From assembly GCA_944387885.1 (NCBI GenBank), contig CALXGR010000001.1, positions 88,044 through 152,043 of the forward strand: a stretch of DNA of 64,000 nt. The letters are read 5' to 3'. Positions 3,649-58,950 of the stretch are shown in pieces. A model generated the notes under the pieces. It saw only the letters and a program-made list of their open reading frames with translations. It was not told the DNA's origin and did no database searches. Each line of letters starts with the position of its first letter. Positions within the stretch are counted from its first letter, which is position 1. The position numbers were made by a program, and so were the translations under genes. The stretch comes from an uncultured Clostridia bacterium (GTDB taxonomy: Bacteria > Bacillota > Clostridia > Oscillospirales > Ruminococcaceae).

Positions 3649-3689
3649 TTATCAGAACCACAACAGAATTTTAACAGGAGGAAAATACC

Positions 3690-3941: not shown

Positions 3942-3966
3942 TCTTGTAACCCCAGCAAAAAAAGAA

Positions 3967-4003
3967 GAGGTACAGCTCTTTCGGGAGCTGTACCTCTTTT
4001 TTT
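3967..4003. terminator. Bidirectional terminator between rpsR and the DUF454 gene
   Basis: The perfect 12-bp stem GAGGTACAGCTC/GAGCTGTACCTC has a TTTCGG loop. It is flanked by A-rich sequence on the left and seven T on the right, so it can end transcription from both converging operons. Confidence 0.9.
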
Positions 4004-4004
4004 G

Positions 4005-4723: not shown

Positions 4724-6401
4724 AGATTCTCCCCTCCTTTATCCGGTACACCCGGTCTGCAATGGCCATGGTGGATTCCCGGTGGGAAACCAGGATGATT
4801 CCCCGTTCCCCCTTCTGCTTTTTCAAGGCCTTCAGAATGATTCCCTCATTGATGCTGTCCACATTACTGGTAGGCTCATCCAGGAGAATCAGGCCGCTTC
4901 CCCGGAGAAATGCCCGGGCCAGTCCGATTCGCTGCTTTTCCCCAGCCGACAGATTTTCTCCCATGGCTCCCACTCTGGTCTCATACCCCTGGGGCAGGCT
5001 TTTGATGAATTCATCCACCGAAGCCATCCGGCAGGCATTCTCCAGCTCCTCCCGGGTAGCGGAGGGTTTTGCGATTCTCAGGTTTTCCTCAATGGTCTGG
5101 TCAAAAAGATATGTGGTCTGACTGACCATTGTGACCTGTTCCAGAAGGCTTTGGGTATTGAGGGTATCAATATCACTTCCGGAGTAGAGGATTTTTCCCT
5201 GTTCCTTTTCCCAGAACCGGAGGAGCAGCTTGAGAAGGGTGGATTTTCCGCATCCGGATTCCCCCACGATACCTACGATTTCCCTTTTGCTTACGGAAAG
5301 GGAAATGTCCCGCAGTATGGGATGAACCCCATCATAGGAGAAGGAGAGGTCCTCCACATCCAGCCGGGAACTGTCTGCGGGAACACCGTTCAGCACAGGA
5401 GTTACCGCCGGCTTTTCCTTGAGGAGATCAAGCACCCGGTCCCCTGCCGCAAAGGTCTGGGTCAGATTTCCCGGAAGAGCCGAGATGGCCAGCACCGGCC
5501 CAAACGACCCAAAAACTGCCGCCACCCCGATTATCATTCGCCCGGGGGTGACGCTCTGATTCAGCACCAGGAAAATTCCTGTTCCCAGGGTCAGCAGAAT
5601 GAAGAGGGATACCCACAGTTCTGTTCCCGCAGAAGCCCGGGCCATCTCCTGCTTCATTTTCCTAGTCTCCTCCAGAAGGATTCCGGAGCGGACTTCCACC
5701 TGATGTTCCCGCTTTTCCCCACCGTTGTGAAGCAGAATGTCCCGGATTCCTTTAATGCTGTCCAGGAAATAGCTGTTGAAGGAAGCAAACTGCCGGCGGT
5801 AATTTACTCCGGCTTCCTTAATGCGGCGGGAAAATACCAGAGGGAGAAGTATCCCCACGGTGACAAACCCGCCCAGGGCCGTAAGCCCCAGCCAGGGGCT
5901 GGCTACCCATCTTACAAAAAGCACCACCCCTGCGGATAAAATTCCCGCAATACAGATGGGAGAAATGGTATGTGCATAGAACACTTCCAGGGTCTCAATG
6001 TCCGAGGTGATCATGGCAATGATGGAACCTTTTTGTTTGGTCTCCAGCTTGGCCGGACAAAGGATCCGCAGGGCTCCAAAGATTTTGCTTCGCAGCACTG
6101 CCAAAAGCCGAAACGCAATATAATGGTTGCTGTACTGTTCCAGATACCGCAAAATTCCCCGCAGAACCCCGCAGCTCACAGCCAGGGCCATGATAGCCCC
6201 AAAGGAAAGGGGAATCGCTTCTCCCAGTGCCTTTGCCACTCCGACCGCTCCCAAAAGCGGGACCGCCATGGCGCAGATAAATCCCAGGGTCCCGTTGAAA
6301 ACCGCCAGGGCCATGATTCCCGCCAGATTTCCCAAAAGCAGAATAAGGCTGGCCATGATTCTGGCTCCGCTTCTCCGCAGTTTTTCCTGTTTGGTTTTCA
6401 T
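4710..6401 (-). CDS. ABC exporter subunit, CydC-like (permease-ATPase fusion)
   Basis: A half-transporter of 563 residues with a six-helix membrane domain (1-310) and an ATPase domain (330-560). Walker A is GESGCGKST, the signature is NLSAGEKQR (LSAGE in place of LSGGQ), Walker B is GLILLDEPTS, and the switch His is in VSHRES. Length and order resemble CydC of the CydDC thiol exporter. It pairs with the CydD-like protein encoded just upstream, overlapping it by 4 bases. No cytochrome bd genes are nearby. The iron-transport neighbourhood suggests export of an iron-, heme- or thiol-related compound, which is an inference. Substrate unknown. Confidence 0.85.
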   Translation of the reverse strand: MKTKQEKLRRSGARIMASLILLLGNLAGIMALAVFNGTLGFICAMAVPLLGAVGVAKALGEAIPLSFGAIMALAVSCGVLRGILRYLEQYSNHYIAFRLLAVLRSKIFGALRILCPAKLETKQKGSIIAMITSDIETLEVFYAHTISPICIAGILSAGVVLFVRWVASPWLGLTALGGFVTVGILLPLVFSRRIKEAGVNYRRQFASFNSYFLDSIKGIRDILLHNGGEKREHQVEVRSGILLEETRKMKQEMARASAGTELWVSLFILLTLGTGIFLVLNQSVTPGRMIIGVAAVFGSFGPVLAISALPGNLTQTFAAGDRVLDLLKEKPAVTPVLNGVPADSSRLDVEDLSFSYDGVHPILRDISLSVSKREIVGIVGESGCGKSTLLKLLLRFWEKEQGKILYSGSDIDTLNTQSLLEQVTMVSQTTYLFDQTIEENLRIAKPSATREELENACRMASVDEFIKSLPQGYETRVGAMGENLSAGEKQRIGLARAFLRGSGLILLDEPTSNVDSINEGIILKALKKQKGERGIILVSHRESTMAIADRVYRIKEGRICAQH

Positions 6402-8134
6402 TGGTTTTCTTCCTCCCGGTATCCTTCTTCCAGTTCTTTCTGTGCTGCGTACAGGCCGGCATATCTCCCCTGCCGTTCCATCAACTGGGCATGCGTTCCC
6501 CGTTCCAACACCTGCCCCGATTCCATATAAAGAATCTCATCCGCCTGGACCACATTGGCCAACCGGTGGGAAATGACCAGAATCAGATGATCCCGGGCCA
6601 GCCTGAGAATATTGTCCATAATGATTTTTTCGCTCTCCGGGTCGATGTTGCTGGTGGCTTCATCAAACAGGTAAACATCCTTTTTCCCTACCAGATTGAT
6701 TCCCAGGGCCAGCCTCTGTTTCTGCCCTCCCGAAAGGTTGGCTCCTTCTTCCGCAACAGGCCGGTCCAGTCCTCTGTTTTCCCGGATAAACCGGTCCAGA
6801 TTCACCAGCTTGAGGGCCCCGAAGATTTCCTTATCTGTTACATCCTCTTTTGCCAGCCGGAAATTTTCCCTCACCGACTGGTTAAAAACATAGGTATTGT
6901 AGCTTACCAGCCCCAGGTGTTTATAGAGGTCTTCCCGGGAAAGCTGTTCCAGGGGAATCCCCCCTACCACCACTTGACCGACCTCCGGGCGCAGTTCCCC
7001 AGACAGAAGCCCCACAATGGTGGACTTTCCGCACCCGGAAGGTCCTACCAGAGCAATCATTCCGGTTTTGGGGAACTTGACCGAGAGATTCTTTACCGCC
7101 TGCCGGCTTCCATCGTAGGAGTAGGATACATCTTTCAGTTCCAGCTCCATCTTCCTGACCGTCTCCTCTCCCCAGACCGGTTCAGGCTGGTTGAGAAGTT
7201 CCAGAATCTGGTTTCCTGCGCTGGCTCCGTTCATGGCCACATGGAAGGCCGCTCCAAAGGTCCGCAAGGGAAGGAAGAATTCCACCGCCACCAACACCAG
7301 AAAAAGAGCTGAGAAGGGAGAGAGGTTTCCCTCTGCAACACTTTTCAGGGTGAGGGCAATTCCCACTCCCGCCCCGCCGTAGGCTACCAGGTCCATGATG
7401 GTGGTGCTGGCCAGCTGCATGACCAGTACCTTCATGGTGATCCTCCGGAACTCCTGGCTGGACCGGTCCATTTCCTCCTGCCGGGCCTGATCCGCAGTAA
7501 AGATTTTCAGCTCCCGAAGTCCCTGAACACTGTCCAGAAAATCATCTCCCATAGCGGTATACTTGCCCCAGTATTTCCGGAAAATCCTTTTGGCATAGCG
7601 GGACACTGCCACAATGGAGAGAGGAATGAGAGGAACACAGGCCAGAAGCACCACCGCCACCGGAAGGGAAATCCAGACAGTAATACCAAAAAGAACCAGC
7701 GGCGCTATCATGGCATAGAAAAACTGCGGAATATAATTGGAATAGTAAAGGTCCAGCTGCTCTACCCCTTCCAGGGCAAGCTGAGTCAGCCCCGCCCGGT
7801 TTCCTCCCTGCCGGTTGCCCAGCCGCAATACCTTTGCGTATACTTTCCGCCGCAGTTCCCGTTTGGCATTACGCCCCAGAAGATCTCTCAGGCTGCCCAC
7901 AGTACGGCTGGTCCAGTAACGAAGGACCAGGGCGGCCACTGCCACAAAGGCCGGCAGAAGAAAAATCTCTCCTCTTTCTCCATATTCCCGGAACCGGACC
8001 GCCATTTCCAAAGCCTTGCAAATGCTGGCAGTAAAGGCCAGGTTTGCTCCCAGCCCTGCAGTCATGAGGCCTACCGTCCACCCAATGTACTTTCTGTCCT
8101 TTCCCAACAGGGCAAGCAGTTTTTTATCTACCAC
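6398..8134 (-). CDS. ABC exporter subunit, CydD-like (permease-ATPase fusion)
   Basis: A 578-residue half-transporter, partner of the CydC-like protein. The membrane domain occupies about 1-320 and includes GDDFLDSVQGLRELKIF, a hallmark of CydD-type exporters. The ATPase domain follows, with Walker A GPSGCGKST, signature NLSGGQKQR, Walker B DVYLFDEATSN and switch His in ISHRL. The start is taken as GTG at 8134 with AAAGGATG upstream; the only nearby ATG is out of frame. Palindromic TTAG-N6-CTAA sites lie 20-80 bases upstream and probably control this operon, which also contains the CydC-like, Cys-rich and DUF454 genes. Confidence 0.85.
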   Translation of the reverse strand: MVDKKLLALLGKDRKYIGWTVGLMTAGLGANLAFTASICKALEMAVRFREYGERGEIFLLPAFVAVAALVLRYWTSRTVGSLRDLLGRNAKRELRRKVYAKVLRLGNRQGGNRAGLTQLALEGVEQLDLYYSNYIPQFFYAMIAPLVLFGITVWISLPVAVVLLACVPLIPLSIVAVSRYAKRIFRKYWGKYTAMGDDFLDSVQGLRELKIFTADQARQEEMDRSSQEFRRITMKVLVMQLASTTIMDLVAYGGAGVGIALTLKSVAEGNLSPFSALFLVLVAVEFFLPLRTFGAAFHVAMNGASAGNQILELLNQPEPVWGEETVRKMELELKDVSYSYDGSRQAVKNLSVKFPKTGMIALVGPSGCGKSTIVGLLSGELRPEVGQVVVGGIPLEQLSREDLYKHLGLVSYNTYVFNQSVRENFRLAKEDVTDKEIFGALKLVNLDRFIRENRGLDRPVAEEGANLSGGQKQRLALGINLVGKKDVYLFDEATSNIDPESEKIIMDNILRLARDHLILVISHRLANVVQADEILYMESGQVLERGTHAQLMERQGRYAGLYAAQKELEEGYREEENQ

Positions 8135-8152
8135 GGTACTGTCATCCTTTCA

Positions 8153-8214
8153 GTTAGTATATGCTAACCTTTTGCTCAAAAAAGAGCAACGGCTTGTAAT
8201 TAGCCATTGCTAAC
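8153..8214. promoter_or_regulatory. Paired palindromic operators before the ABC exporter operon
   Basis: Two matching palindromes are present: GTTAG-TATATG-CTAAC (8153-8168) and ATTAG-CCATTG-CTAAC (8199-8214), both TTAG-N6-CTAA and 46 bases apart. On the minus strand the first overlaps a TATACT -10-like element. A third inverted repeat, TTGCTC-N6-GAGCAA (8172-8189), lies between them. The composition recalls DtxR/IdeR-type metal boxes, and feoAB is the adjacent operon. The regulator itself is not in the window. Confidence 0.6.
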
Positions 8215-8272
8215 CATTGAAGAATACCGGATTTTTCACAAAAAGTCAAGAGGGCAACTGTTATTGTTTTTC

Positions 8273-8308
8273 AAAAAAAGAACGGGGAAGGATTCCTTCT
8301 CCGTTCTT
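8273..8308 (-). terminator. Terminator after feoAB
   Basis: The stem AAGAACGGGGAAGG/CCTTCTCCGTTCTT is followed on the minus strand by a run of T. It separates feoAB from the ABC exporter operon. Confidence 0.88.
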
Positions 8309-8317
8309 TTTATTCTA

Positions 8318-10660
8318 TTACCAGAAAAGCAGGCCCAAGCGGTAGACCAGGAAGGCCATGACCCAGGCCAGGGCGGTCTGTCCTACCACCATGGCGACAG
8401 CCCATTTTCCGCCCAGCTCCCGTTTTACCGAGGCAATGGCTGCCACGCAGGGAGTATACAGAAGGCAGAACACCAGCAGGCTGGCTGCTGCGGCCTGGCT
8501 GAGGGTATTCTGAAGGGCAGCAGTGGAGCCGAACAGGATGCTCAGGGTGGAGACCACGCTCTCCTTGGCCATGAATCCGGAGAGGAGCGCCGTGGAAACA
8601 CGCCAGTCTCCGAAGCCCAAGGGTGCAAGAGCAGGAGCGATCCACCCTGCCAGGGCTGCCAGAATACTCTGGGAGGAATCGGCCACCACGTTCATCCTCA
8701 TATCAAAGGTCTGGAGGAACCAAATCAGAACGGTGGCCAGGAAGATAACGGTAAAGGCTCGCTGCAAAAAGTCCTTGGCCTTTTCCCAAAGCAGCTGTGC
8801 CACATTCCGGGCTCCCGGCAGGCGGTAGTTGGGCAGTTCCATTACAAAGGGAACCGGCTCCCCCTTGAACTGAGTGTTCTTGAGGATAAGCGCTGCCAGA
8901 ATTCCGGTGAGGATTCCAAAGGCATAGAGAGCAATCATGACCAGCGCTCCCCTGCCCGGGAAAAAAGCTGCGGCAAAGAATCCGTAAATGGGCAGCTTGG
9001 CGCTGCAGCTCATGAAGGGGGTCAGGAGAATGGTCATCTTCCGGTCCCGCTGAGAGGAAAGGGTCCGGCTGGCCATGACACCCGGAACAGTGCACCCGAA
9101 GCCCATCAGCATGGGGACGATGCTCCGGCCAGAAAGCCCCAGTTTCCGGAGAAGCTGGTCCATGATAAAGGCTACCCGGGCCATGTATCCGCTGTCCTCC
9201 AGAATGGACAGGAAGAAGAACAGGGTGACGATTACCGGCAGGAAGCTAAGTACGCTGCCAACACCGCCCAGAATACCATCCACCACCAGGGAATGTACCA
9301 CCGGGTTTACATGCCAGTTCAGGAACATCTGGTGAACCATCTGGGTGAAAGCCGCTACTCCCTGCTCCATCAGTCCCTGGAGGAAGGCTCCTATCACATT
9401 GAAGGTAAGCCAGAACACCAGCGCCATGATTCCTGCAAAGGCGGGAAGTGCAGTATATTTTCCCGTAAGGATCCGGTCAATCACCTTGGAGCGGAGCCGC
9501 TCCTTGCTTTCGTGGGGCTTTACCACGGTCTGGGAACAAATCCAATGAATGTAAGCGAACCGCATGGAAGCCACGGCACTGGCCCGGTCCATCCCCTGTT
9601 CCTGCTCCATCTGGACCAGGATATGTTCCAGCAGTTCCATCTCGTTCTTGTCCAGCTTGAGCCGGGGCAGAAGGCTGGTATCCCCTTCCGCCAGCTTGCT
9701 GGCCGTGAACCGACAGGGCAGGTCTGCCCGGACTGCATGGTCCTCGATCAGGTGCATGATGGCGTGGATACATCTGTGGACGGCAGCGCCATTCTCTTCC
9801 CGGCAGAAGTCCACCCGTCCGGGGGCTTCCTGGTATTTGGCCAGGTGGACGGCATGTTCCACCAGTTCTTCAACTCCTTCTCCCTTGGCAGCGGAGATGG
9901 GTACTACCGGAACTCCCAGCAATTCCTCCAACTGGTTGATCCGGATGGCTCCCTCGTTGGCCCGGACTTCGTCCATCATGTTCAGGGCCACCACCATGGG
10001 GATATTCAGTTCCATCAGCTGTAAAGTGAGGTACAAGTTCCGTTCAATGTTGGTTGCATCCAGAATATTGATGATTCCCTTGGGCCGGTTGGTGAGAAGA
10101 AACTCCCGGGTAACGATTTCCTCGTTGCTGTAGGGGGACATGGAATAGATACCCGGCAGGTCAGTGATGAGGGTGTCCGGGTGTCCCTTGATCACGCCGT
10201 CCTTCCGGTCCACTGTCACGCCAGGGAAGTTTCCCACGTGCTGGTTGGAGCCGGTAAGCTGGTTGAACAAGGTAGTCTTGCCGCAGTTCTGGTTTCCTAC
10301 CAGGGCAAAGGTAAGGGTCGTTCCCTCCGGGAGAGGGTTTTCCTCCTTTTTGGAGTGGTACTTTCCGCTTTCGCCGTATCCGGGGTGAGGATAAAGGACC
10401 CGGCCGGAATTGCTTCCCTTCCGGGGTTCCTCCTCGCAGGGCTGGCCGATTTGAATCTGAGCGGCATCCTCCAACCGGATGGTCAGTTCATAGCCATGGA
10501 CCCGCAGTTCCACCGGGTCTCCCATAGGGGCATATTTTACCACCGTCACCTGGGCGCCCTGAATCAGGCCCATATCCAGAAGATGCTGACGAAGGGCACC
10601 GCTGCCCCCCACGGACAATATTGTTGCTGTTTTTCCTAACTGAAGCTCATTCAGTGTCAT
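8318..10660 (-). CDS. feoB: Ferrous iron transporter, FeoA-FeoB fusion
   Basis: Imports Fe(II) across the cytoplasmic membrane. Residues 1-75 are a FeoA SH3-like domain ([40 protein letters not shown]). A linker leads to the FeoB G domain, with G1 GNQNCGKTT near 122-130, [10 protein letters not shown] and [15 protein letters not shown]. The C-terminal membrane part contains two Gate-type regions, including [14 protein letters not shown] and [15 protein letters not shown]. The total of 780 residues exceeds a standalone FeoB because of the FeoA fusion. The ATG at 10658-10660 has AAGGAGAA eight bases upstream; a longer reading frame exists but lacks such a site. Rubrerythrin is divergent from it. 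Confidence 0.95.
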
Positions 10661-47898: not shown

Positions 47899-48744
47899 AT
47901 GGACGAAAAATGGACTACTGAAATCAAGCCCAAAACCGGATGGTTTGACATCGACCTGCAGGAGCTGTGGCAGTACCGTGACCTGGTGGTCATGTTTGTA
48001 AAGCGGAACTTCACCGTTCTTTACAAGCAGACCATTCTGGGCCCTGCCTGGATCCTGCTGAATCCCCTGATCACCACCGTCATCTTCAACATTGTGTTCG
48101 GCGGCATTGCGGGAATCAGCACCGACGGTGTTCCCGGCTTCCTGTTTTACATGGCAGGCAACACCATGTGGACCTTCTTTTCCAGCTGTATCAACAATAC
48201 CGCCAACACCTTTGTGACCAATGCCGGGGTATTCGGAAAGGTATACTTTCCCCGTCTTACCATGCCGGTAAGCCAGGTGTTGACCAGCCTTATCAACTTC
48301 CTCATCCAGTTTGCCATGTACGCCTGTTTCTGGCTCTATTTTGCAGTCCAGGGAGAGGTACATCTCACCGTCTGGATGTGGTATCTGCCCATTGCAGTGA
48401 TTCAGACCATGCTGCTGGGCCTGGGGGTAGGCATCATTGTTTCCAGCCTGACCACCAAATACCGGGACCTGGCCATTGCGGTGGGCTTCGGGGTACAGCT
48501 CTGGATGTACGCCACCCCTGTGGTCTATCCCCTGTCCAGCCTTTGGAATCAGCCCAAGCTTTCCTTTATTGTAAGCATCAATCCCATGACCGCTCCGGTG
48601 GAAGCCTTCCGTCTGGCCACTCTGGGCACCGGCAGCGTTTCCCTGGGCGGGATCCTGTACAGCCTGATTGCCACTGCCGTTCTGCTGATCATCGGTGTGG
48701 TTCTGTTCAGCCGGATTGAAAAGACCTTTATGGATACGGTGTAA
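47899..48744 (+). CDS. ABC-2 type polysaccharide export permease (Wzm/TagG-like)
   Basis: A 281-residue membrane protein with six predicted helices. The N-terminal amphipathic DLQELWQYRDLVVMFVKRNFTVLYKQTILGPAWILLNPLITTVIFNIVFGGIAGI is the family signature. Later come VFGKVYFPRLTMPVSQVLTSLINF and YATPVVYPLSSLWNQPKLSFIVSINPMTAPVEAFR. It forms the channel for a finished, lipid-linked glycan, working with the Wzt-like ATPase encoded 14 bases downstream. Confidence 0.93.
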   Translation: MDEKWTTEIKPKTGWFDIDLQELWQYRDLVVMFVKRNFTVLYKQTILGPAWILLNPLITTVIFNIVFGGIAGISTDGVPGFLFYMAGNTMWTFFSSCINNTANTFVTNAGVFGKVYFPRLTMPVSQVLTSLINFLIQFAMYACFWLYFAVQGEVHLTVWMWYLPIAVIQTMLLGLGVGIIVSSLTTKYRDLAIAVGFGVQLWMYATPVVYPLSSLWNQPKLSFIVSINPMTAPVEAFRLATLGTGSVSLGGILYSLIATAVLLIIGVVLFSRIEKTFMDTV

Positions 48745-48758
48745 GGAGGATGAATTCT

Positions 48759-50048
48759 ATGGATAATATGAGCATCCCCCAGCGGGAACCGGTGATCCAG
48801 GTCAAGGGTCTCAAGAAGCAGTACAAGCTGGGGCAGATTGGGGGAGGCACCCTTACCGCCGACCTGCAGAGCTGGTGGGCCCGGGTGCGGGGAAAAGAAG
48901 ACCCTAACACCATCATCGGCACTGACACCCGGCTCTTTGGTCAGACCTTCATGGCCCTCAACGGCCTGGACCTGACCGTCTACAAGGGAGAAGCCCTGGG
49001 AATCATCGGCCGGAACGGTGCAGGCAAAAGTACCTTCCTGAAAATCCTTTCCCGGATCACCGCCCCCACCGAGGGTTCCATCAAAATCAAAGGCCGGGTC
49101 GCCAGTATGCTGGAAGTAGGCACCGGCTTCAACCAGGAAATGACCGGCCGGGAAAACATCTACATGAACGGCGCCATCCTGGGCATGACCAAGGCAGAAG
49201 TAGATGCCAAGCTGGACCAGATCATTGAATTCAGCGAATGCGGAGACTTCATTGACACCCCCGTCAAGCGGTATTCCAGCGGTATGTTCGTCAAGCTGGC
49301 CTTTGCGGTGGCTGCCCACCTGGACAGCGAGATCATGGTCATGGACGAAGTTCTGGCCGTGGGTGATATGAAGTTCCAGCAGAAGTGTCTGGGCAAAATG
49401 AGCGATGTGGCCGGTCAGGAAGGCCGGACCGTCCTCTATGTAAGCCATAACATGAGCACCATCCGTCAGCTCTGCACCCGGTGCGTAGTACTGGACCAGG
49501 GCCGCATCATCTTTGACGGTGATGTGGAACAGGCCATTGCCATCTACATGGACACCACCGACGTGAACCTGGTCCACTATGACCTGGAGCATGTGAACCG
49601 GATGAACGTGGGCGGCGGCAAGCGGCTGCGGCTCCAGAGTCTCGACTTTCTGGGCAAGGAGAGCAGCGTGTTCTCTGACACTGAGCTGATCAAAATTCAG
49701 ATCAAGTGGGCGGTCAGCGAGCCTTTCAGCGGAATCAACCTGAAAATGAACCTGCACTTCCGGGACGGCAGCCCGGTGGGTATCACCCATCCTGTGGACA
49801 TTGGCGCCGCCCAGCCCGGAAAGACCTACACCACCACCTTTACCTTTGACCCCAGCCTTCTGGGAGAAGGTCAGTATTACTTCTATCTGGACATTTTTGA
49901 CGGAGACCTGGTTCGGGCGGTCTGTCTGGACAAGCCTGTGACCGAGTTCCGGTTTGAGGTGACCAGCGGTAATCTGTCCATGCCTGAGTGGTCTGCAGGC
50001 TGGGGCCGAATCCACTTCCCCGGAGTGAAGCTTTTGGAGGAAGACTAA
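48759..50048 (+). CDS. ABC polysaccharide export ATPase with C-terminal glycan-binding domain (Wzt-like)
   Basis: A 429-residue protein. The ATPase domain (about 1-250) has Walker A IIGRNGAGKST, the signature RYSSGMFVKLAFAVAA and Walker B MVMDEVLAVGD. A second, beta-rich domain of about 150 residues (RMNVGGGKRLRLQSLDFLGKESSVF ... FRFEVTSGNLSMPEWSAGWGRIHFPGVKL) matches the Wzt C-terminal domain that recognises the chain end of the exported polysaccharide. Simple TagH-like ATPases lack it. The ATG at 48759 is preferred to one nine bases earlier because GGAGG lies nine bases upstream of it. Its stop overlaps the next start as TAATG. Confidence 0.92.
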   Translation: MDNMSIPQREPVIQVKGLKKQYKLGQIGGGTLTADLQSWWARVRGKEDPNTIIGTDTRLFGQTFMALNGLDLTVYKGEALGIIGRNGAGKSTFLKILSRITAPTEGSIKIKGRVASMLEVGTGFNQEMTGRENIYMNGAILGMTKAEVDAKLDQIIEFSECGDFIDTPVKRYSSGMFVKLAFAVAAHLDSEIMVMDEVLAVGDMKFQQKCLGKMSDVAGQEGRTVLYVSHNMSTIRQLCTRCVVLDQGRIIFDGDVEQAIAIYMDTTDVNLVHYDLEHVNRMNVGGGKRLRLQSLDFLGKESSVFSDTELIKIQIKWAVSEPFSGINLKMNLHFRDGSPVGITHPVDIGAAQPGKTYTTTFTFDPSLLGEGQYYFYLDIFDGDLVRAVCLDKPVTEFRFEVTSGNLSMPEWSAGWGRIHFPGVKLLEED

Positions 50049-50995
50049 TGGATCTCTATGTGTGTCACACCAGCTACCAGCTGATGATTGCCCTGGTCCG
50101 GGCCTGGCGTCAGGACGGCGGCCAGAGTATCCTTCTCAGCAAGAAGGTCCCCGGCGGTCTGCCTCTCTGGCAGCGGATCCAGGAGAGCGGCGCCTTTGAT
50201 GAAGTAGCCGTGGTGGACGAGGAAAAGTGGCCCGGCATTGCCCGGGGGCTTTTTGCCCGGTGGAAAAACAAGCGGGGCTTTGAGAAGAACTGCGGTTGGT
50301 ATCTCAAGCCCGGCAAATACCGGGACATCTACATCTGCAATGACTGGAGCGTCATTGGCCGGTATCTTCAGGACTGCCGGTATCCCTACATCCTCTGTGA
50401 GGACACCATCGGCAGCACCCTTCACGATGACCAGAGCCTGGTATGGGACCAGCGGAAGAATCCGCCCAAGGACTACCAGTACTGGGGAGACTATCCCCTC
50501 TGCAAAATGGTGGAGAGTGAGGATGCCGACCAGTGCACTCTCTTTCCCCGGGAAAAGATGGTCACTTTCAGCAAGCGGGAACTGCTGGCCAGCCTGACCT
50601 CTGGCGAGAAGGAAATGCTCCAGAAGGTGTTCATCACCCAGCCGCTCCCCTCTTCCCAGGAAGCCCCCTGTCTCCTGCTCCCCCGCAGCTTTGTGCTGGA
50701 CGGTCTTATGGACCAGGAGACCCAGGACCGGCTGTTCCGGGCTGTGGCGGAAAAATACTGCACTGAGCCTCTTTTCATTAAGACCCATCCCCGGGATGAG
50801 ACCGATTATCAGGCCCTCTTCCCCCGGGCCGTGGTGCTGGACCGGACCATGCCCAGCGAAATTCTGAATTTTTGTCTTCCCTTCCGGTTTTCCAGGGCGG
50901 TTACTGTACAGTCCTGGGCTTTGGAGGGCTTTACCGCCGCCGATGAAAACATCCGGATCACTCTGGAAGATGCTATGAAGCTTATCTCTCACTAA
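50048..50995 (+). CDS. GT52/polysialyltransferase-like glycosyltransferase
   Basis: A 315-residue protein. The start MDLYVCHTSYQLMIALVRAW and the later LFIKTHPRDETDYQALFPRAVVLDRTMPSEILNF resemble GT52 and bacterial polysialyltransferase-type enzymes, which have CHTPLQ-like N-termini and a KPHPRD box (here KTHPRD). Those families use CMP-sialic acid. A CMP-ulosonate synthetase of the KdsB type is encoded next, so this enzyme is a good candidate to transfer that sugar. The alternative is a sialic acid-like donor. Start chosen by the TAATG overlap with the Wzt-like gene. Confidence 0.7.
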   Translation: MDLYVCHTSYQLMIALVRAWRQDGGQSILLSKKVPGGLPLWQRIQESGAFDEVAVVDEEKWPGIARGLFARWKNKRGFEKNCGWYLKPGKYRDIYICNDWSVIGRYLQDCRYPYILCEDTIGSTLHDDQSLVWDQRKNPPKDYQYWGDYPLCKMVESEDADQCTLFPREKMVTFSKRELLASLTSGEKEMLQKVFITQPLPSSQEAPCLLLPRSFVLDGLMDQETQDRLFRAVAEKYCTEPLFIKTHPRDETDYQALFPRAVVLDRTMPSEILNFCLPFRFSRAVTVQSWALEGFTAADENIRITLEDAMKLISH

Positions 50996-51014
50996 CCAAG
51001 AAAGGAAACGCTGT

Positions 51015-51743
51015 ATGAAAATCATTGGTGTCATTCCCGCCCGGTATCAGAGCAGCCGTATGCCCGGCAAGCCCCTGGCGGATATTCTGGGCAAACCTAT
51101 GATCTGGTGGGTCTACCAGGAAGCCATCAAGGCAAAAGGACTGGATCAGGTGGTCATTGCCACCGACGACGACCGGATCGCTGAAAAGTGCCGGGAACTG
51201 GGGATGGACTACCTGATGACCAGCGCCAGTCACGATACCCCCACCAGCCGGATCTACGAGGTCAGCACCAAGCTGGATGCGGACCTGTATCTCCAGATCA
51301 TGGGGGACGAGCCCCTCATCAATGTGGCCGCCTTCGACCTGATTCTGCCCGAGACCCTTCCGGAGGACCCCTACTATGTAGCGGGAATCACCAACGTCAT
51401 GGAACATCCTGCAGACGTCATTGATTTCAGCAACCAGAAGGTAGCCTGCAACCAGAATCGGGAGATTCTTCTGATTTCCCGCAGTCCTATCCCCTATCCC
51501 AAAGGAAGCCTGGACATTCAGTACGAAAAAATCACCGGGATCCAGCTTTTCTCCAAGCAGGCCCTGGCTTTTTATAACGCAACCCCCAAGAGTATCCTGG
51601 AAAAGGCGGAGGAGAACGACCTGATGCGGTTTGTGGAAAACGGCCACAAGGTCCACGCCATCTGCAGTCCCTACAAGACTATAAGTGTGGATACCCCCAA
51701 AGACCTGACACTGGTTCAGGAGATTTTAAAACAGAGGACTTAA
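51015..51743 (+). CDS. kdsB: CMP-Kdo synthetase-like cytidylyltransferase
   Basis: Activates a 3-deoxy-ulosonic acid with CTP. The 242 residues fit the KdsB family: MKIIGVIPARYQSSRMPGKPLADILGKPMIWWVYQEA, QVVIATDDDRIAEKC, DYLMTSASHDTPTSRIYEVS and LQIMGDEPLIN. The nucleotide-binding ARYQSSRMPGKPL loop is intact. KdsB is normal in Gram-negative lipopolysaccharide producers and unexpected in a Gram-positive-type cell. Neither kdsA nor neuB is nearby. The substrate may be Kdo or a related sugar. An unequivocal call between KdsB and sialic-acid synthetases needs an alignment, but the sequence leans to KdsB. Confidence 0.85.
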   Translation: MKIIGVIPARYQSSRMPGKPLADILGKPMIWWVYQEAIKAKGLDQVVIATDDDRIAEKCRELGMDYLMTSASHDTPTSRIYEVSTKLDADLYLQIMGDEPLINVAAFDLILPETLPEDPYYVAGITNVMEHPADVIDFSNQKVACNQNREILLISRSPIPYPKGSLDIQYEKITGIQLFSKQALAFYNATPKSILEKAEENDLMRFVENGHKVHAICSPYKTISVDTPKDLTLVQEILKQRT

Positions 51744-51747
51744 AACT

Positions 51748-53298
51748 ATGGGAAAAATCAATCTTCTCGACTGCACCTTGCGGGACGGCGGCTACGTCAA
51801 TGACTGGAAGTTCGGCCGCCGCTCCACCCATCAGATCATCCGGAGCCTGGTACGGGCCGGAGTGGATATTGTGGAGGTAGGATTCCTCAACAAGACCGTC
51901 ACCCCTCAGCCCGGAGTCACCCGCTGGCAGACCATGGACCAGCTGAAGGAAGTTCTTCCCCAGCGGTCCAAGCGGGGCAGTGCCATCTTCAGCGCCATGT
52001 GCATCCACAACTTCTATGATGTGGACCTCCTCCCCCAGCGGGACGAGACCACCGTGGATATGCTCCGGGTTACTTTCCACGATTACGATGCTCCCCAGGG
52101 ACTGGAATTCTGCCGCCGGGCCAAGGAGAAGGGTTACCTTCTCAGCTGCAACCCCATCAACATTATGGGATATACCGATGAGCAGGTTCTCTGGCTTACC
52201 AAGGAGATTGCAAAAATCCACCCCTACGCCATGAGCATTGTGGACACCCACGGCAGCATGAACCACCGGGACCTGCAGCGTCTGGTAGGTCTGGTGGACA
52301 ATAACCTGCCCCGGGACATCTGTCTGGGACTTCATCTCCACGAGAACATGGCCCAGAGCTTCAGCCTGGCCCAGCGGTTTGTGGACTACCATCTCAACCG
52401 GGATATTACTGTGGACGGCAGCCTGGAAGGAATGGGCCGTATCCCCGGCAACCTTCCCATTGAGCTGATGGCCCATTATCTCAATGAGAACATGAACACC
52501 CACTACGATCTGGACCCCATGCTGGATGCCATTGAGGACTGCATCAACCCCATCAAGGGAAGTCCTCTCTGGGGATATACCCCCATTTACTTCCTCAGTG
52601 CCAAGTACAACCTCCACCGCACCTATGCGGAGCATCTCAGCCAGAAGGGCACTCTCACCCATCGGGATATCAATCACATTCTCAGCCAGATCGCCCCTGA
52701 GAAGAAAACTGCCTTTGACGCCGAATATGCCGACCAGCTCTACTACCAGTACCAGCACCGGCAGGTAGATGACTCCGCTGCCCGTGCCAAGCTGCGCCAG
52801 GAACTGGAAGGGAAAACCGTTCTGGTGGTGGCCCCTGGTTCCAGCCTGACCCGGTGCGCCGACCAGGTGGAGAACGCTTTGAAGGAAGCAGATGTGGCCA
52901 TCAGCGCCAACTTTGTTCCTGACTTTGCAGTGGACTATTCTTTCTTTACCAGCAGCAAGCGGTATGACCGGCTGGGCGGTCCCCTCTGCCCTGTCATTGC
53001 CACCAGCAACCTGACCGGTGCCCAGTTTACCATCGACTATGACAGTGTCTGCGGCACCTTCCCCGGAGGGGCCAACAGTGTAATTATGCTGTTGAATCTG
53101 CTCAAGGACATGGATGTGAAAGAGGTCCTGCTGGCCGGTGCCGACGGTTACTCCACCGGTGCTGCCGATTACTTTGACAACAGCTATCACGCACACACCC
53201 GGCGTGACGATCAGTTCAACCGGGATATGGCCCAGGCCATTGCCGCCTGCGGGCTGAATCTTCGCTTTGTAACCCCCAGCGCCTACCAGAAAGGATAA
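51748..53298 (+). CDS. HOA-aldolase-type (DRE-TIM) enzyme fused to a C-terminal Rossmann-like domain
   Basis: A 516-residue two-part protein. Residues 1-300 are a DRE-TIM aldolase of the 4-hydroxy-2-oxovalerate aldolase type: INLLDCTLRDGGYVNDWKFG carries the DxxLRDG motif, GLHLHENMA gives the metal HxH, and VDGSLEGMGRIPGNLPIE matches the VDxSLxGxGxxxGN motif. A C-terminal domain (about 345-516) starts LEGKTVLVVAPGSSLTRCADQVENAL and ends in LLNLLKDMDVKEVLLAGADGYSTGAADYFDNSYH; it recalls DUF115/MptE-like Rossmann domains. Between kdsB-like and kdsC-like genes, it is the likely source of a pyruvate-derived sugar acid. Exact reaction unknown. Confidence 0.75.
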   Translation: MGKINLLDCTLRDGGYVNDWKFGRRSTHQIIRSLVRAGVDIVEVGFLNKTVTPQPGVTRWQTMDQLKEVLPQRSKRGSAIFSAMCIHNFYDVDLLPQRDETTVDMLRVTFHDYDAPQGLEFCRRAKEKGYLLSCNPINIMGYTDEQVLWLTKEIAKIHPYAMSIVDTHGSMNHRDLQRLVGLVDNNLPRDICLGLHLHENMAQSFSLAQRFVDYHLNRDITVDGSLEGMGRIPGNLPIELMAHYLNENMNTHYDLDPMLDAIEDCINPIKGSPLWGYTPIYFLSAKYNLHRTYAEHLSQKGTLTHRDINHILSQIAPEKKTAFDAEYADQLYYQYQHRQVDDSAARAKLRQELEGKTVLVVAPGSSLTRCADQVENALKEADVAISANFVPDFAVDYSFFTSSKRYDRLGGPLCPVIATSNLTGAQFTIDYDSVCGTFPGGANSVIMLLNLLKDMDVKEVLLAGADGYSTGAADYFDNSYHAHTRRDDQFNRDMAQAIAACGLNLRFVTPSAYQKG

Positions 53299-53301
53299 GG
53301 T

Positions 53302-53835
53302 ATGGAGATCAAACTCATGGTCCTGGACGTGGATGGAACCCTCACCGACGGGGGAATCTACTACGACGACCAGGAAAATGAAACCAAAAAGTTCAGTGTA
53401 AAGGACGGTGCCGGAATCGTTCTGGGCCGGGCTGCCGGACTGCAGTTCATGATCTGCACCGGCCGGGAATGCCCTGCTGTGGCCCGGCGTGCCCGGGACC
53501 TGAAAATTGACTATGTCTACCAGAATGTGTCCCGAAAGTGGGAGTTTCTGGAGGATTTTATGATTCTCCACGGCCTGGAAAAATCCCAGGTGGCCTACTG
53601 CGGGGATGACTGGAACGACCTGGCTGCCATGGCCCTCTGCGGCTGGGTGGCCTGCCCTGCGGATGCTGCCTCTCAGGTCAAAGCTGTGGCAGATTATGTC
53701 TGCCCCCACGTGGGCGGGCAGGGTGCTGTCCGGGATGCCATCATTCAGCTTCTTACCCGGGACGGTGTTCTGGACCAGGCTCTGGAAAAGGCTTTCGGAG
53801 TCAAGAAGGAGGGTTCTCCATGTACCAGGAATTGA
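53302..53835 (+). CDS. kdsC: KdsC-like HAD phosphatase
   Basis: A 177-residue HAD phosphatase of the type that removes phosphate from Kdo-8-phosphate. Motif I is LDVDGTLTDGGIYYDD, the conserved FSVKDGAGIVLGRAAGLQFMICTGRE follows, then VAYCGDDWNDLAAMALCGWVACPADA and ADYVCPHVGGQGAVRDA. Length and the short cap-less C1 type agree with KdsC. A close relative (sialic-acid-9-phosphatase or NeuA-linked HAD) remains possible. The next gene starts 16 bases before its stop. Confidence 0.85.
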   Translation: MEIKLMVLDVDGTLTDGGIYYDDQENETKKFSVKDGAGIVLGRAAGLQFMICTGRECPAVARRARDLKIDYVYQNVSRKWEFLEDFMILHGLEKSQVAYCGDDWNDLAAMALCGWVACPADAASQVKAVADYVCPHVGGQGAVRDAIIQLLTRDGVLDQALEKAFGVKKEGSPCTRN

Positions 53836-54509
53836 AAGAAGCTGCCTATCTGGCCAACATGACCATTGCACGCAGCGGGCTTATCCCGGTGGATTCCACC
53901 TGGGGAAACGCCAGCCAGTGTGACCGGCAGGCCGGGGTTATGGCCATCAAGCCCTCCGGGGTGGATTATTCCCTTCTCACCGTGAAAGATATGGTGGTGG
54001 TGGACCTGGCTACCGGACAGGTGGTGGAAGGACGGCTTCGTCCCTCCAGCGACACCCCCACTCATCTGGAACTTTACCGGGCTTTCCCTGAAATTGGAGG
54101 CGTAGCCCACACCCACAGCCGCTGGGCCACCATCTTCGCCCAGAGCCGCCGGGACATTCCTCCCTACGGCACCACCCATGCAGATACCTTTTACGGCGCT
54201 GTCCCCTGTGTTCCCGCTCTGAGCCGGGAGCAGGTGGAAGGCGACTACGAAGGGAATACCGGCCGGGTGATGGCTGCCCATTGTCAGAACATCTATAACC
54301 AGATTCCCGCCGCCCTGGCAGCGGGACATGGTCCCTTTACCTGGGGCGCTACCGCCGCCAAAGCGGTGGAAAATGCCATTATTCTGGAAGAATGCGCCGC
54401 CATGGCCTATTATTCCATCCAGATGGGCGCTCCTGTTCTGGAGCAGTATGTGCTGGACAAGCACTATTCCCGGAAACACGGGCCCAAGGCCTACTACGGC
54501 CAGAAATAA
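53820..54509 (+). CDS. L-ribulose-5-phosphate 4-epimerase family enzyme (AraD)
   Basis: A class II aldolase/epimerase of 229 residues. AraD motifs are clear: STWGNASQCDRQAGVMAIKPSGVDY, VVVDLATGQVVEGRLRPSSDTPTHLELYRAFPEIGGVAHTHSRWATIFAQSRRDIPPYGTTHADTFYGAVPCV, with metal-binding HTHS and THAD. AraD interconverts L-ribulose-5-phosphate and D-xylulose-5-phosphate. No ara operon surrounds it. Its coupling to the KdsC-like gene suggests it makes or shapes the pentose phosphate that the aldolase module uses. That is an inference. AAGGAGGG precedes the ATG. Confidence 0.85.
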   Translation: MYQELKEAAYLANMTIARSGLIPVDSTWGNASQCDRQAGVMAIKPSGVDYSLLTVKDMVVVDLATGQVVEGRLRPSSDTPTHLELYRAFPEIGGVAHTHSRWATIFAQSRRDIPPYGTTHADTFYGAVPCVPALSREQVEGDYEGNTGRVMAAHCQNIYNQIPAALAAGHGPFTWGATAAKAVENAIILEECAAMAYYSIQMGAPVLEQYVLDKHYSRKHGPKAYYGQK

Positions 54510-54526: not shown

Positions 54527-56701
54527 ATGAAAGATTCTTCTTGGAAGAAAAAGCTCTGGTCTCTGCGGCACTTCTTTGTAGCAGGGGGCATCGTCTTTTT
54601 CTGCATGGTGATTGCCCTGCTGGTCTATCTGCTGAAGGTGCAGGGACAGGGTTCCAAAAGTCTGCGGATTGCCTGGAATGACAACTTTGAGCTGGTCACT
54701 GCTCCCGTTCAGGAGGAGTTGGTTCAGGAGTTTGACTATGACCTGAATCTGTACAGCCTGATGGTCAAGTTTCAGTTTGACACCCAGCCTCAGGGTGCTC
54801 TGGAACTGGTGATGGAGGACGCTGCCACCGGCGAGACCCTGGCCACCGGCAGTGTGGATATGAGCCTGTTTATCTCAGGGGAGTATACCACCATCGGTTT
54901 TACCTCTTCCCTGCCCCAGGCGGAAGGCCGGCGCTGCCGGCTTATCCTTCGCCCCCATTACGAGGGAGAGGGCCAGATCAGTCTTATGTACTCTGCAACT
55001 ACCCCGGAAGGGTCCACCCTCTCGGTGGACGGCCAGGCTCTGGACGGGGCTTTGGCCATGCAGATCAACTATCACCAGATCGGCAGTTTCCTGACCCGGT
55101 TCTACTGGGGCATCTGTATCTGCCTCAGCCTTATGGCGGGAGGTGCTTACCTCTACTGCCGCAGCTGTTTCTTTAAATTGCACATCTTTGTGCTGGCAGC
55201 TGTCATCCTGCTGGGCGGGGTATACAATGCCGTGTTGCCTCCCTACTCTGCGCCGGATGAACAGTTTCACATCAACCAAAGTTTTAGCATTGCCTCTGTC
55301 TGGGCCAACCGGTTTGCCCCGGAGGGGATCTGGAAAATGAACTCTGTTCCCCTGAATGAGACCCGGCGCCGTCCCTCTGACCAGAATGCGCTGGTTCAGG
55401 TGGAGGAAACTACGGTTTTCCAGTGGAGCACCATAGCGGAGCATCTCACTGACCGGACCCAGGACAATTACTACGACCAGCAGCTCTACCTTGAATATCA
55501 GGTAGACAACACCAACACCCTTTACTATCTTACCGGAGGTGTGGTGTTCCTCTGCTATCTTCTCAAGCTGGGCTTTGTGCCTGCTCTCCTGTTAGGACGG
55601 CTGGCCAATCTGATTCTTTTTGCTCTCTGTGCCAGCTGGGCGGTAAAGCGGATTCCCGTAGGGAAAAATATCCTTACCGTAATAGCCTTTCTCCCCATGA
55701 CCTTACATCTGGCAGCTTCCTTCAGCCGGGACAGCGTTATTATGAGCCTTTCCCTGGTCTATCTGGCCATGGTCCTGGCAGGGTGTCTGGATGAGAATTT
55801 CCGGTTCCGGTGGTATCATTGGGTCATTGCGGCCTTGATTGCCTACGCCCTTATCCCTGCCAAATATGTTTATATTCCCCTGGTACTCACCATCCTGGTC
55901 CTTCCCGCCAAAAAGCTGGGAAAGCGCCCCCGACTGGCCCGGGTGGGACTGGCTGTCTATATGCTGGCAGTATTGCTGGGACGGAGTGTCATTGCTCCCG
56001 CTTTGGAGAATTACCTCTACCTGCTCAGCACCCCCTACGACACCTACGAGGAGGCCATGGAAGCAGACGAGTACTACTCCCAGAATCCCGAATTGCTGGA
56101 AGAAGCACCGGGACAAACATCCCTGGAAGAAGAGTTGGCTCTCCTGGAGGATTCCCGTGCTCAGGATTCTTCCGCTGTTGAGGAAACCGGCGAGGAAACC
56201 GTCAATCCTGACTCCATCTGTTATAGCTTCTCCTATATTCTCTCCCATCCGGTGGACACCTTCCTGTTGGGAGTGAACTCCATCATTGAACTGGGCGACC
56301 ACTATGTCCGAACCCTGGTAGGTGGGTCTCTCAGCTACTACAATCTGGACCTGGCCTGGACCTGGGTATTGCTGCTCTACGCACTTCTCTTCTTTGCGGC
56401 TCTTCCTGTTTCCGGGGAGGCAGGTCTGCCCTTCACCCTTCGGCTGGTGCTGGGCGGGGCCGCTCTCCTCTGCGCCGGGTTTGCCGTGGGCGGATGTGTC
56501 CTTTGGACCCCCACCTATTACACCACCATTTACGGTTTCCAGGGCCGGTATCTGCTGCCCGCCCTTCCTGCCGCACTTCTGGCTCTCTCCCCTGTTCGGC
56601 TGAAATATGCCGGCGATCTGCGGCCCGGCCTGGCCTGTGCCACTGTCTGGATCAACGCCGGGGTGCTGCTCAACGCCATGCTGGTCATTATCGCCCGTTA
56701 A
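54527..56701 (+). CDS. DUF2142 multi-spanning membrane protein (GT-C-like)
   Basis: A 724-residue membrane protein of the DUF2142 family, which belongs to the GT-C-type glycosyltransferase superfamily. The family motif near residue 245 reads AVLPPYSAPDEQFHINQSFSI. An N-terminal helix, a beta-rich external domain (about 55-205) and about eleven further helices are visible. A polar, acidic loop (about 560-600) lies between two helices. The ATG at 54527 follows GGGGAGGG. A lipid-linked sugar donor could come from the GtrB/DPM-like enzyme encoded two genes downstream. The transferred sugar is unknown. Confidence 0.82.
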   Translation: MKDSSWKKKLWSLRHFFVAGGIVFFCMVIALLVYLLKVQGQGSKSLRIAWNDNFELVTAPVQEELVQEFDYDLNLYSLMVKFQFDTQPQGALELVMEDAATGETLATGSVDMSLFISGEYTTIGFTSSLPQAEGRRCRLILRPHYEGEGQISLMYSATTPEGSTLSVDGQALDGALAMQINYHQIGSFLTRFYWGICICLSLMAGGAYLYCRSCFFKLHIFVLAAVILLGGVYNAVLPPYSAPDEQFHINQSFSIASVWANRFAPEGIWKMNSVPLNETRRRPSDQNALVQVEETTVFQWSTIAEHLTDRTQDNYYDQQLYLEYQVDNTNTLYYLTGGVVFLCYLLKLGFVPALLLGRLANLILFALCASWAVKRIPVGKNILTVIAFLPMTLHLAASFSRDSVIMSLSLVYLAMVLAGCLDENFRFRWYHWVIAALIAYALIPAKYVYIPLVLTILVLPAKKLGKRPRLARVGLAVYMLAVLLGRSVIAPALENYLYLLSTPYDTYEEAMEADEYYSQNPELLEEAPGQTSLEEELALLEDSRAQDSSAVEETGEETVNPDSICYSFSYILSHPVDTFLLGVNSIIELGDHYVRTLVGGSLSYYNLDLAWTWVLLLYALLFFAALPVSGEAGLPFTLRLVLGGAALLCAGFAVGGCVLWTPTYYTTIYGFQGRYLLPALPAALLALSPVRLKYAGDLRPGLACATVWINAGVLLNAMLVIIAR

Positions 56702-57853: not shown

Positions 57854-57868
57854 AGGAGTATGAACCTG

Positions 57869-58588
57869 ATGGCAAACTTGCTCATTGTGATCCCTGCCTA
57901 TAACGAGGAAGAAAGTATTCAGCGGGTAGTGGATGATCTGATTCAGAATTATCCCCAATACGACTATGTGATCATCAACGACGGCAGCCGGGACAAAACC
58001 GCTTCCATCTGCCGCCAGCGGGGGTATCATCTCATTGATCTGCCTGTAAACCTGGGATTGGCCGGGGCCTTCCAGACCGGTCTTCGGTATGCGGCTGAAA
58101 AGGGATATGACTATGCCATCCAGCTGGATGCGGATGGTCAGCACCTGCCCCAATACATTGCACCCATGCTGGAACAGGCACAGCAGGGATATGATATTGT
58201 TATTGGCAGCCGTTTTCTGACCGTAAAGAAGCCCAAAACCCTTCGGATGCTGGGCAGCTATATTATCAGCTGGGCAATCCGCCTTACCACCGGCCGGGCC
58301 ATCTGCGACCCCACCAGCGGAATGCGGCTTTTGAACCGGAACATGATTCTGGAATTTGCACAGAATCTGAATTATGATCCTGAGCCGGACACCATCAGTT
58401 ATCTTATCAAGAACGGCGCCAAGGTAAAAGAATACCAGGTGACCATGAAGGAGCGGGAGGCCGGCCAAAGCTACCTGACCTTTATGCGAAGCGTAGAATA
58501 CATGGCCAGAATGGGCATTTCCATCCTGCTTATCCAGTGGTTCCGGAAGCGGGACCGTTCCACCCCCTACCCGGAAAGGAGCCTGTGA
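57869..58588 (+). CDS. Polyprenyl-phosphate sugar synthase-like GT2 (GtrB/DPM-like)
   Basis: A 239-residue GT2 enzyme: MANLLIVIPAYNEEESIQRVVDDLIQ, VIINDGSRDKTA and LDADGQHLPQYIAPMLE, then IVIGSRFL and CDPTSGMRLLNRNMI. This is the DPM1/GtrB group that makes polyprenyl-phosphate hexoses. The C-terminal membrane anchor typical of GtrB is missing; the following DUF2304 protein could provide one. The start was placed at the second of two ATG codons, ten bases after AAAGGAG; the first, at 57860, is only two bases from it. Confidence 0.88.
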   Translation: MANLLIVIPAYNEEESIQRVVDDLIQNYPQYDYVIINDGSRDKTASICRQRGYHLIDLPVNLGLAGAFQTGLRYAAEKGYDYAIQLDADGQHLPQYIAPMLEQAQQGYDIVIGSRFLTVKKPKTLRMLGSYIISWAIRLTTGRAICDPTSGMRLLNRNMILEFAQNLNYDPEPDTISYLIKNGAKVKEYQVTMKEREAGQSYLTFMRSVEYMARMGISILLIQWFRKRDRSTPYPERSL

Positions 58589-58590
58589 TC

Positions 58591-58950
58591 ATGGTACTCA
58601 CACCCAGTATTCGTATTTTGTTGGTTCTGGGCAGCCTGCTCACCGTCGTGTTTGTACTGTCCCGGATTCGGAAATCCAAGATGCAGATAGAGGATTCCCT
58701 GTTCTGGCTGGCTTTTTCCGCCGCCATGATCATCCTCAGCATTTTCCCGGAGATTGCTTTCTGGTGCAGTCAGTTTCTGGGATTTGAAGCTCCCATCAAT
58801 TTTGTTTACCTGGTCATTATTTTCCTGCTGATCATCAAGCAGTTCTATATGTCCATCAAAATCAGCCAGATGGACAACCGTATCCGGATCCTGACCCAGC
58901 GGATCGCCCTGAATCAGGAGGCTGCCGAGCGGGAAAAGCAGGACCTGTGA
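58591..58950 (+). CDS. DUF2304 small membrane protein
   Basis: A 119-residue protein with three hydrophobic segments (IRILLVLGSLLTVVFVLSRI; SLFWLAFSAAMIILSIFPEIAFW; NFVYLVIIFLLIIKQFYMSIKI) and a short C-terminal coiled coil. It matches DUF2304, which is encoded next to DPM/GtrB-like GT2 enzymes in many bacteria and probably works with them. It starts two bases after the GT2 stop. It is the last gene of the polysaccharide locus. Confidence 0.87.
   Translation: MVLTPSIRILLVLGSLLTVVFVLSRIRKSKMQIEDSLFWLAFSAAMIILSIFPEIAFWCSQFLGFEAPINFVYLVIIFLLIIKQFYMSIKISQMDNRIRILTQRIALNQEAAEREKQDL

Follow-up and report, generated by a model that had tools for sequence, protein, structure and literature searches.

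How could a bacterium place a Kdo-like sugar acid on a surface glycan if the operon that would activate and transfer the sugar holds no phosphoenolpyruvate (PEP)-dependent synthase? The known routes to Kdo (3-deoxy-D-manno-oct-2-ulosonic acid) and to sialic-type acids use PEP-condensing synthases (KdsA, NeuB). The question is raised by a 64,000-nucleotide stretch of DNA from an uncultured Clostridia bacterium of the Ruminococcaceae (contig CALXGR010000001.1, positions 88,044 to 152,043; the whole stretch is referred to here as the window), in which a two-domain aldolase is encoded between KdsB-like and KdsC-like proteins, in the slot that kdsA and kdsD fill in a related operon. We propose that this operon probably serves to synthesise and export a glycan that carries a Kdo-like 3-deoxy-2-ulosonic acid, with the aldolase supplying the acid. 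The metal-dependent aldolase barrel would condense pyruvate with an aldose phosphate to form a 3-deoxy-2-ulosonate phosphate, with no need for PEP; the KdsC-like phosphatase would strip the phosphate and so draw the reversible aldol reaction towards product; the KdsB-like enzyme would join the acid to cytidine monophosphate (CMP); and a GT52-like enzyme would move the CMP-activated acid onto a glycan that Wzm/Wzt would export. We infer the reaction, its acceptor and its product from gene content and from the comparison with relatives that follows.

The kdsA-kdsD slot in related genomes

Among 197 genomes of the window's taxonomic family (146 of them with a completeness of 90% or more and a contamination of 5% or less), we found the aldolase in 34 (E≤1e-60) and KdsB in 25 (E≤1e-20), and 24 of the 25 KdsB genomes carry the aldolase alongside KdsB. 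The sole KdsB genome without it, G044, carries KdsA over the cut-off. Its locus (L125) is ordered Wzm-Wzt-GT52-KdsB-KdsA-KdsD-KdsC-DUF2142 (KdsA 388.8 bits, cut-off 314; KdsD 305.1 bits, cut-off 203.7), whereas that of G163 (L133), labelled as the same genus, is ordered Wzm-Wzt-GT52-KdsB-aldolase-KdsC-DUF2142. The shared proteins are closely related (identities of 95% for Wzm, 94% for Wzt, 79% for GT52, 88% for KdsC and 81% for DUF2142), and the DNA of the two genomes is alignable over the stretch that starts at Wzm and ends within GT52 (85%) and once more beginning with KdsC (82-88%), with no alignment across kdsB-kdsA-kdsD versus kdsB-aldolase. KdsB was replaced along with the synthase cassette (39% identity). 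Judging by these sequences, one phosphatase and one transferase seem to serve either supply, KdsA-KdsD or aldolase, and the exchange gives strong comparative support, the best that we have, to the aldolase being the synthase.

The G163 aldolase clusters with those of G048, G166, G088 and G083 (tree support 99-100). Each of these genomes with a known upstream side, namely G163, G048, G166 and G088, has the order GT52-KdsB-aldolase-KdsC, and so in this genus the aldolase may have preceded kdsA-kdsD. Upstream of Wzm, two glycosyltransferase-like genes differ between G044 and G163 (L125 2383-4437; one short piece aligns at 73%), beyond which the genomes align again at 94%, so that this second difference (L125:2007-4317 vs L133) has both flanks alignable. 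KdsA exceeds its cut-off in one other genome of the family, G228, which like G044 has no aldolase at E≤1e-60; there KdsA is followed by a PseF-like cytidylyltransferase and then KdsC. A cupin protein precedes these three genes (L132:3243-5734), a KdsA version with another cytidylyltransferase type.

Linkage to cytidylyltransferases and the occurrence of PEP-dependent synthases

A contig scan returned at least 579 aldolase relatives among 591 stretches, of which 80 loci were kept. In 47 of these 80 loci the aldolase is preceded on its own strand by a cytidylyltransferase (KdsB-like in 27, PseF-like in 20) whose end is no more than 250 bases away. Of 818 other + strand genes in these loci, 7 are so preceded, and the linkage exceeds chance; six further loci have a cytidylyltransferase within 3 kb. 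For the 30 of 34 family aldolase matches whose loci were fetched, the neighbour is KdsB in 24, a PseF-like protein in three, a thiamine diphosphate (ThDP) enzyme in two and a contig end in one.

With its root placed at the midpoint for display, the aldolase tree (109 rows, without L040, L095, which is the window and identical to L096, and the repeats L126-L131) divides into groups of 52 and 57 rows. In the second group, part of the aldolases have a ThDP enzyme as neighbour and some have an AroB-like cyclising phospholyase (TIGR04425), and the aldolase is therefore likely to be used in other sugar pathways too. The ThDP enzyme is near the aldolase in L047, L058, L060, L061, L075, L084 and L088; in L058, L060, L061 and L075 an AroB-like member of the TIGR04425 cluster is close by as well. 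Other arrangements include a KdsB-aldolase pair followed, in place of KdsC, by a 2-keto-3-deoxygluconokinase-like PfkB kinase (L043:9262-12612 and L131:8013-11383), an aldolase followed by a HAD phosphatase in an archaeal metagenome-assembled genome (MAG) of the Methanomassiliicoccaceae (L072), and an aldolase on a short contig of a Pseudogracilibacillus MAG (L017) that is nearly equal to that of Mediterraneibacter L018 and is probably mis-binned.

The preliminary description of this DNA had noted that kdsA and kdsD were absent from the locus, and neither is over its cut-off in the whole genome of the window: the best KdsA score (TIGR01362) is 118.6 of 314 bits, likely a DAHP synthase, and the best KdsD/KpsF score (TIGR00393) is 25.7 of 203.7. 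Two likely DAHP-synthase genes are present. We then considered 36 genomes in which a single locus encodes both KdsB and the aldolase; of 37 loci of this kind, L080 was excluded, its KdsB gene lying on the opposite strand. KdsA is over its cut-off in three of them (Akkermansia, Gastranaerophilales and Bacteroidales), KdsD in two and full-length NeuB (>190 bits) in 13; in 20, both of these synthases, KdsA and full NeuB, are missing. Other PF03102 matches, though over the low family cut-off, are weaker or partial and lie mostly at DAHP-synthase-like sites. Gemmiger formicilis ATCC 27749 has the operon (L011) along with a NeuB; in Mediterraneibacter glycyrrhizinilyticus, which has KdsB-aldolase-KdsC, neither a full NeuB nor a KdsA over the cut-off was found. 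The same description had held that a functional kdsA or neuB elsewhere, co-occurring with these genes in relatives, would count against its pathway; for the most part that objection fails, but the window's own genome does encode one full NeuB (328.2 bits). It lies on contig C46, in a legionaminic-type operon of its own that also encodes NeuA and NeuC, and NeuB is not part of the KdsB-aldolase operon. At 3610-9557 of that locus (L006, C46:1-9882) lie a CBS/NTP-transferase, NeuB, NeuC, two Gfo/Idh-like oxidoreductases and NeuA, all but NeuB named by eye. We rejected NeuB as a hidden partner of the aldolase, given that its operon is its own and that 20 of the 36 genomes have neither synthase.

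The operon and its proteins

Five adjacent genes with tiny gaps or overlaps had been described, and all five ORFs (open reading frames) were confirmed on the + strand at 50048-54509 of the window, with gaps of 19, 4 and 3 bases and then a 16-base overlap (KdsC/AraD). A module of just these five genes is not supported: AraD is patchy among relatives, and the operon also takes in Wzm/Wzt on the upstream side (47899-50048) and a DUF2142 membrane protein on the downstream side (54527-56701), reading Wzm-Wzt-GT52-KdsB-aldolase-KdsC-AraD-DUF2142. Its features are as follows.

47899..48744, +, Wzm-like permease (ABC2_membrane) of a polysaccharide ATP-binding cassette (ABC) transporter; PF01061 64.3 bits; operon head conserved in L125-L130 and L133
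48750..50048, +, Wzt/TagH-like polysaccharide ABC-transporter ATPase; ABC_tran, weak Wzt_C; position conserved in L125-L130 and L133
50048..50995, +, GT52-like glycosyltransferase, candidate ketosyl (ulosonic acid) transferase; PF07922 (Glyco_transf_52) 29.9 bits, cut-off 26.1; directly upstream of KdsB in relatives
51015..51743, +, KdsB-like putative CMP-ulosonate synthetase; CTP_transf_3 139.8 bits; NF003952 212.8, cut-off 193
51748..53298, +, two-domain aldolase in the KdsA/KdsD slot; HMGL-like 64.9 bits; slot exchange with kdsA-kdsD in G044
51748..52575, +, aldolase N-terminal TIM barrel, residues 1-276; Arg12, Asp13, His196 and His198 invariant in 49 sequences
52780..53295, +, aldolase C-terminal domain, residues 345-516; fold common to DUF115/MptE, SteA and GT42/GT29 sialyltransferases
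53302..53835, +, KdsC-like HAD phosphatase; Hydrolase_3 44.5 bits; TIGR01670 129.5, cut-off 106.95
53820..54509, +, AraD-like L-ribulose-5-phosphate 4-epimerase, accessory; Aldolase_II 155.8 bits; NF006047 312.4, cut-off 257
54527..56701, +, DUF2142 membrane protein, last conserved operon gene; PF09913 105.4 bits; position conserved in L125-L130 and L133

Ten large + strand ORFs precede the operon at 37-47.8 kb; six were scanned with Pfam (five glycosyltransferases over the cut-off and one weak match) and the remaining four are GT2/GT4-like by eye. Together with Wzm/Wzt these genes identify the region, by sequence, as a locus for a polysaccharide exported by an ABC transporter. Towards the end of this sugar locus, a GT2 gene overlaps a DUF2304 gene (57860-58950).

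The aldolase had been described as being of the 4-hydroxy-2-oxovalerate type, a label that its scores do not bear out, since it misses both family cut-offs (TIGR03217, 65.9 of 286 bits; NF006049, 74.7 of 229). Its HMGL-like domain, barrel fold and conserved Arg-Asp and HxH place it in the DRE-TIM/HMGL-like superfamily of metal-dependent pyruvate lyases, and its predicted structure (AlphaFold2, mean predicted local distance difference test score 91.8) combines a DmpG-like pyruvate-aldolase barrel with a second domain, absent from the earlier account, whose fold resembles DUF115 and sialyltransferases. (Alignment A3 comprised 37 of the 80 loci and 11 of 120 listed proteins; alignment A2 was made without L040, which has ambiguous bases, and L072, which is short.) In a fold search the likeness of the C-terminal domain to DUF115/GT42, and also to SteA, was clear of background, and the domain possibly binds a CMP-sugar. 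GT42/GT29 sialyltransferases have a conserved catalytic His, and no invariant or nearly invariant His was found in 38 C-terminal domain sequences. We also considered this domain as a sugar isomerase that might explain the missing KdsD, and rejected the idea because the fold search led to DUF115/GT42/SteA instead; weak D-lyxose isomerase matches occur in 4 of the 38 members (best 0.00079), and the absence of SIS-type isomerases among the fold-search matches listed excludes nothing. Catabolism of 4-hydroxy-2-oxovalerate was likewise rejected, on the missed family cut-offs and on the lack of an aldehyde dehydrogenase among the ten scanned proteins of the operon and its end. In these respects (score, second domain and missing dehydrogenase) the protein is unlike the class II pyruvate aldolases DmpG/BphI, as it is in having Tyr16 at the position of the DmpG catalytic base, the His after the TLRDG motif. 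Its N-terminal domain is ~22-25% identical to BVU_2661, a putative aldolase of Bacteroides vulgatus (PDB 3dxi), and the likeness to DUF115/MptE, Maf and GT42 sialyltransferases is limited to the C-terminal domain. P0092 is a natural 767-residue fusion of aldolase and HAD_2 phosphatase.

The GT52-, KdsB-, KdsC- and AraD-like assignments of the preliminary description were supported by profiles, as far as family level. The KdsB-like protein passes the NF003952 subfamily cut-off and has the CMP-Kdo synthetase 1gq9 as its nearest PDB relative (151.9 bits), but it falls short of the kdsB equivalog TIGR00466 (114.7 of 155.2), which the KdsB of G044 passes (177.1). Its GT[DE]R motif reads PTSR; proteins of the window group have TPTSR, TPTGR or TPTAR and Q[ILV]MGDEP, with the Gln before GDEP altered, whereas E. 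coli KdsB and the KdsA-partnered KdsB of G044 have GTER and [NT][VI]QGDEP. Other aldolase-partnered KdsB proteins retain TGTDR or TGSDR (canonical GT[DE]R in L043, L046, L074, L106 and L108). Because the KdsB paper, in the passages drawn on here, gives no residue numbers for the Kdo contacts, we treat these changes as a hint of a sugar other than Kdo; the motif diversity among the aldolase's partners suggests that the aldolase family probably makes several acids.

The phosphatase passes TIGR01670 (KdsC/YrbI), as expected of a KdsC-type C0 HAD phosphatase, without reaching the KdsC equivalogs NF007019 and NF058599. Its two best PDB relatives are nearly tied, 3e81 at 100.2 bits (presumably a KDN-9-P phosphatase, although its PDB name is acylneuraminate cytidylyltransferase) and the KdsC 4um5 at 96.3. 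The transferase matches GT52 over residues 193-287 only and has no PDB relative by sequence; its G163 homologue is below the Pfam cut-off (19.1 bits) and that of G044 has no Pfam match. A polysialyltransferase-type (PF07388) protein lies near the aldolase in L021:12218-13912 and similar loci, and cluster c8, which is PF07388-type and takes in GT52-like genes too, is present in 16 of the 80 loci.

The AraD-like protein clearly belongs to the L-ribulose-5-phosphate 4-epimerase family (PDB 1jdi, 247.6 bits) without reaching the equivalog TIGR00760 (288.7 of 389.1), and its gene is the sole copy found in the window's genome. It adjoins KdsC in 6 of the 30 fetched family loci, the window's own included, and no AraD at E≤1e-20 was found in 8 of 26 aldolase genomes tested, so we rejected it as a core gene. 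A weaker pattern remains: all nine tested relatives with an aldolase at least 55% identical have AraD (five in the operon as the only copy, four elsewhere), compared with 9 of 17 genomes with more distant aldolases, the other eight of which have none. This may point to pentose phosphates as a substrate source in the window's clade. A Pfam scan of 60 of 194 candidate neighbours in KdsB-type loci listed 25 of 65 families; apart from two Aldolase_II proteins, no enzyme that would make an acceptor recurs among those listed.

Weighing the proposed aldolase route

Several observations weigh against the proposed route. On the strand of the aldolase, 27 of the 80 loci lack a cytidylyltransferase within 3 kb, and 14 of these lack a phosphatase as well; three of the 27 start less than 700 bases from a contig end, and in 13 a ThDP enzyme lies within that distance of 3 kb. 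Within the taxonomic family, 10 of the 34 aldolase genomes have no KdsB. The base His of DmpG is replaced by Tyr16 in the window, in a column that is variable (Y, F or H in relatives). No acceptor source is common to all loci, KdsD being over its cut-off in two of the 36 genomes and AraD patchy, and NeuB does occur in the window's genome, a MAG-like draft of 64 contigs that is 84.9% complete. Since KdsB was swapped together with the synthase in G044 and G163, an identical product does not follow, and this sugar may not be the only difference between the two exported polymers, given their differing upstream glycosyltransferase-like genes.

How else might the locus be read? A narrower version of our proposal, in which the aldolase is a plain stand-in for KdsA and its product from pyruvate and D-arabinose-5-phosphate is Kdo-8-phosphate itself, would account for the retention of KdsC and GT52 between the KdsA and aldolase types of one genus and for the canonical GT[DE]R in five aldolase-partnered KdsB proteins. 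We consider it unlikely: KdsB changed with the cassette, the window's KdsB is under the TIGR00466 cut-off that the KdsA-partnered one exceeds, both motifs are altered in the window group, and KdsD, the usual source of arabinose-5-phosphate, is not over its cut-off in the window's genome or in 34 of the 36 relatives. The aldolase might instead make a shorter C6 or C7 acid (e.g. of the 2-keto-3-deoxy-gluconate-6-phosphate type, from glyceraldehyde-3-phosphate) that is then CMP-activated. Glyceraldehyde-3-phosphate is always available in the cell, and the 2-keto-3-deoxygluconokinase-like kinase directly after the aldolase in L043 and L131 would suit such a product; nevertheless this kinase cluster holds just four sequences across the 80 loci, the window operon lacks the kinase gene, and KdsC and GT52 are common to a KdsA-KdsD operon whose product would be C8, which makes the shorter acid unlikely too.

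It is distinctly improbable that the aldolase is no synthase at all, with the CMP-sugar coming from NeuB elsewhere and the aldolase building another block or degrading a keto acid. A full NeuB in the window's genome and in 13 of the 36 relatives could supply such a sugar, but the window's NeuB operon holds its own NeuA and NeuC, 20 of the 36 genomes encode neither NeuB nor KdsA, and the aldolase was swapped in place for kdsA-kdsD. We place next to no confidence in an ordinary KdsA pathway whose kdsA was missed: the incompleteness of the window's genome would allow for it, but KdsA is over its cut-off in just 2 of the 197 family genomes, 146 of which reach at least 90% completeness, and neither of the two has the aldolase at E≤1e-60.

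Returning to the aldolase as supplier of the acid, the earlier suggestion of an alternative ulosonic-acid route thus stands as far as comparison goes (the 24 of 25 linkage and the slot exchange), while its chemistry rests on inference. The operon resembles the CMP-Kdo pathway (KdsD, KdsA, KdsC and KdsB) in combining KdsB-like and KdsC-like proteins, a transferase and an ABC exporter, to which the G044 version adds KdsA and KdsD; unlike that pathway, it has a pyruvate-aldolase-type protein in place of KdsA/KdsD and a diverged KdsB. With the NeuB-type nonulosonic pathways (sialic, legionaminic and pseudaminic acids) it would share the CMP activation of a 3-deoxy-2-ulosonic acid, but it lacks a NeuB of its own. 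The pathway is likely a form of CMP-ulosonate biosynthesis that starts with a new type of enzyme, and no aldolase route to CMP-ulosonate was found in the titles and abstract openings listed from openly licensed PMC literature. On a broader view, for which we judge the chances about even, the two-domain aldolases would be a second, PEP-free origin of CMP-ulosonic acids, replacing KdsA/KdsD together with their own KdsB, yielding non-Kdo products and using the fused domain to sense or handle the CMP-sugar, in surface-glycan operons of Bacillota and a few spirochaetes, Melainabacteria and Verrucomicrobia.

If the proposed route is true, ulosonic surface sugars would have a second chemical origin, spread, judging by record titles, through gut Clostridia, and KdsB/KdsC-type genes would be no sign of a lipopolysaccharide outer membrane. 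The G044/G163 pair, related operons fed by KdsA-KdsD or by the aldolase, makes the question directly testable, and a large family named in databases merely as 'aldolase catalytic domain-containing protein' would gain a candidate function.

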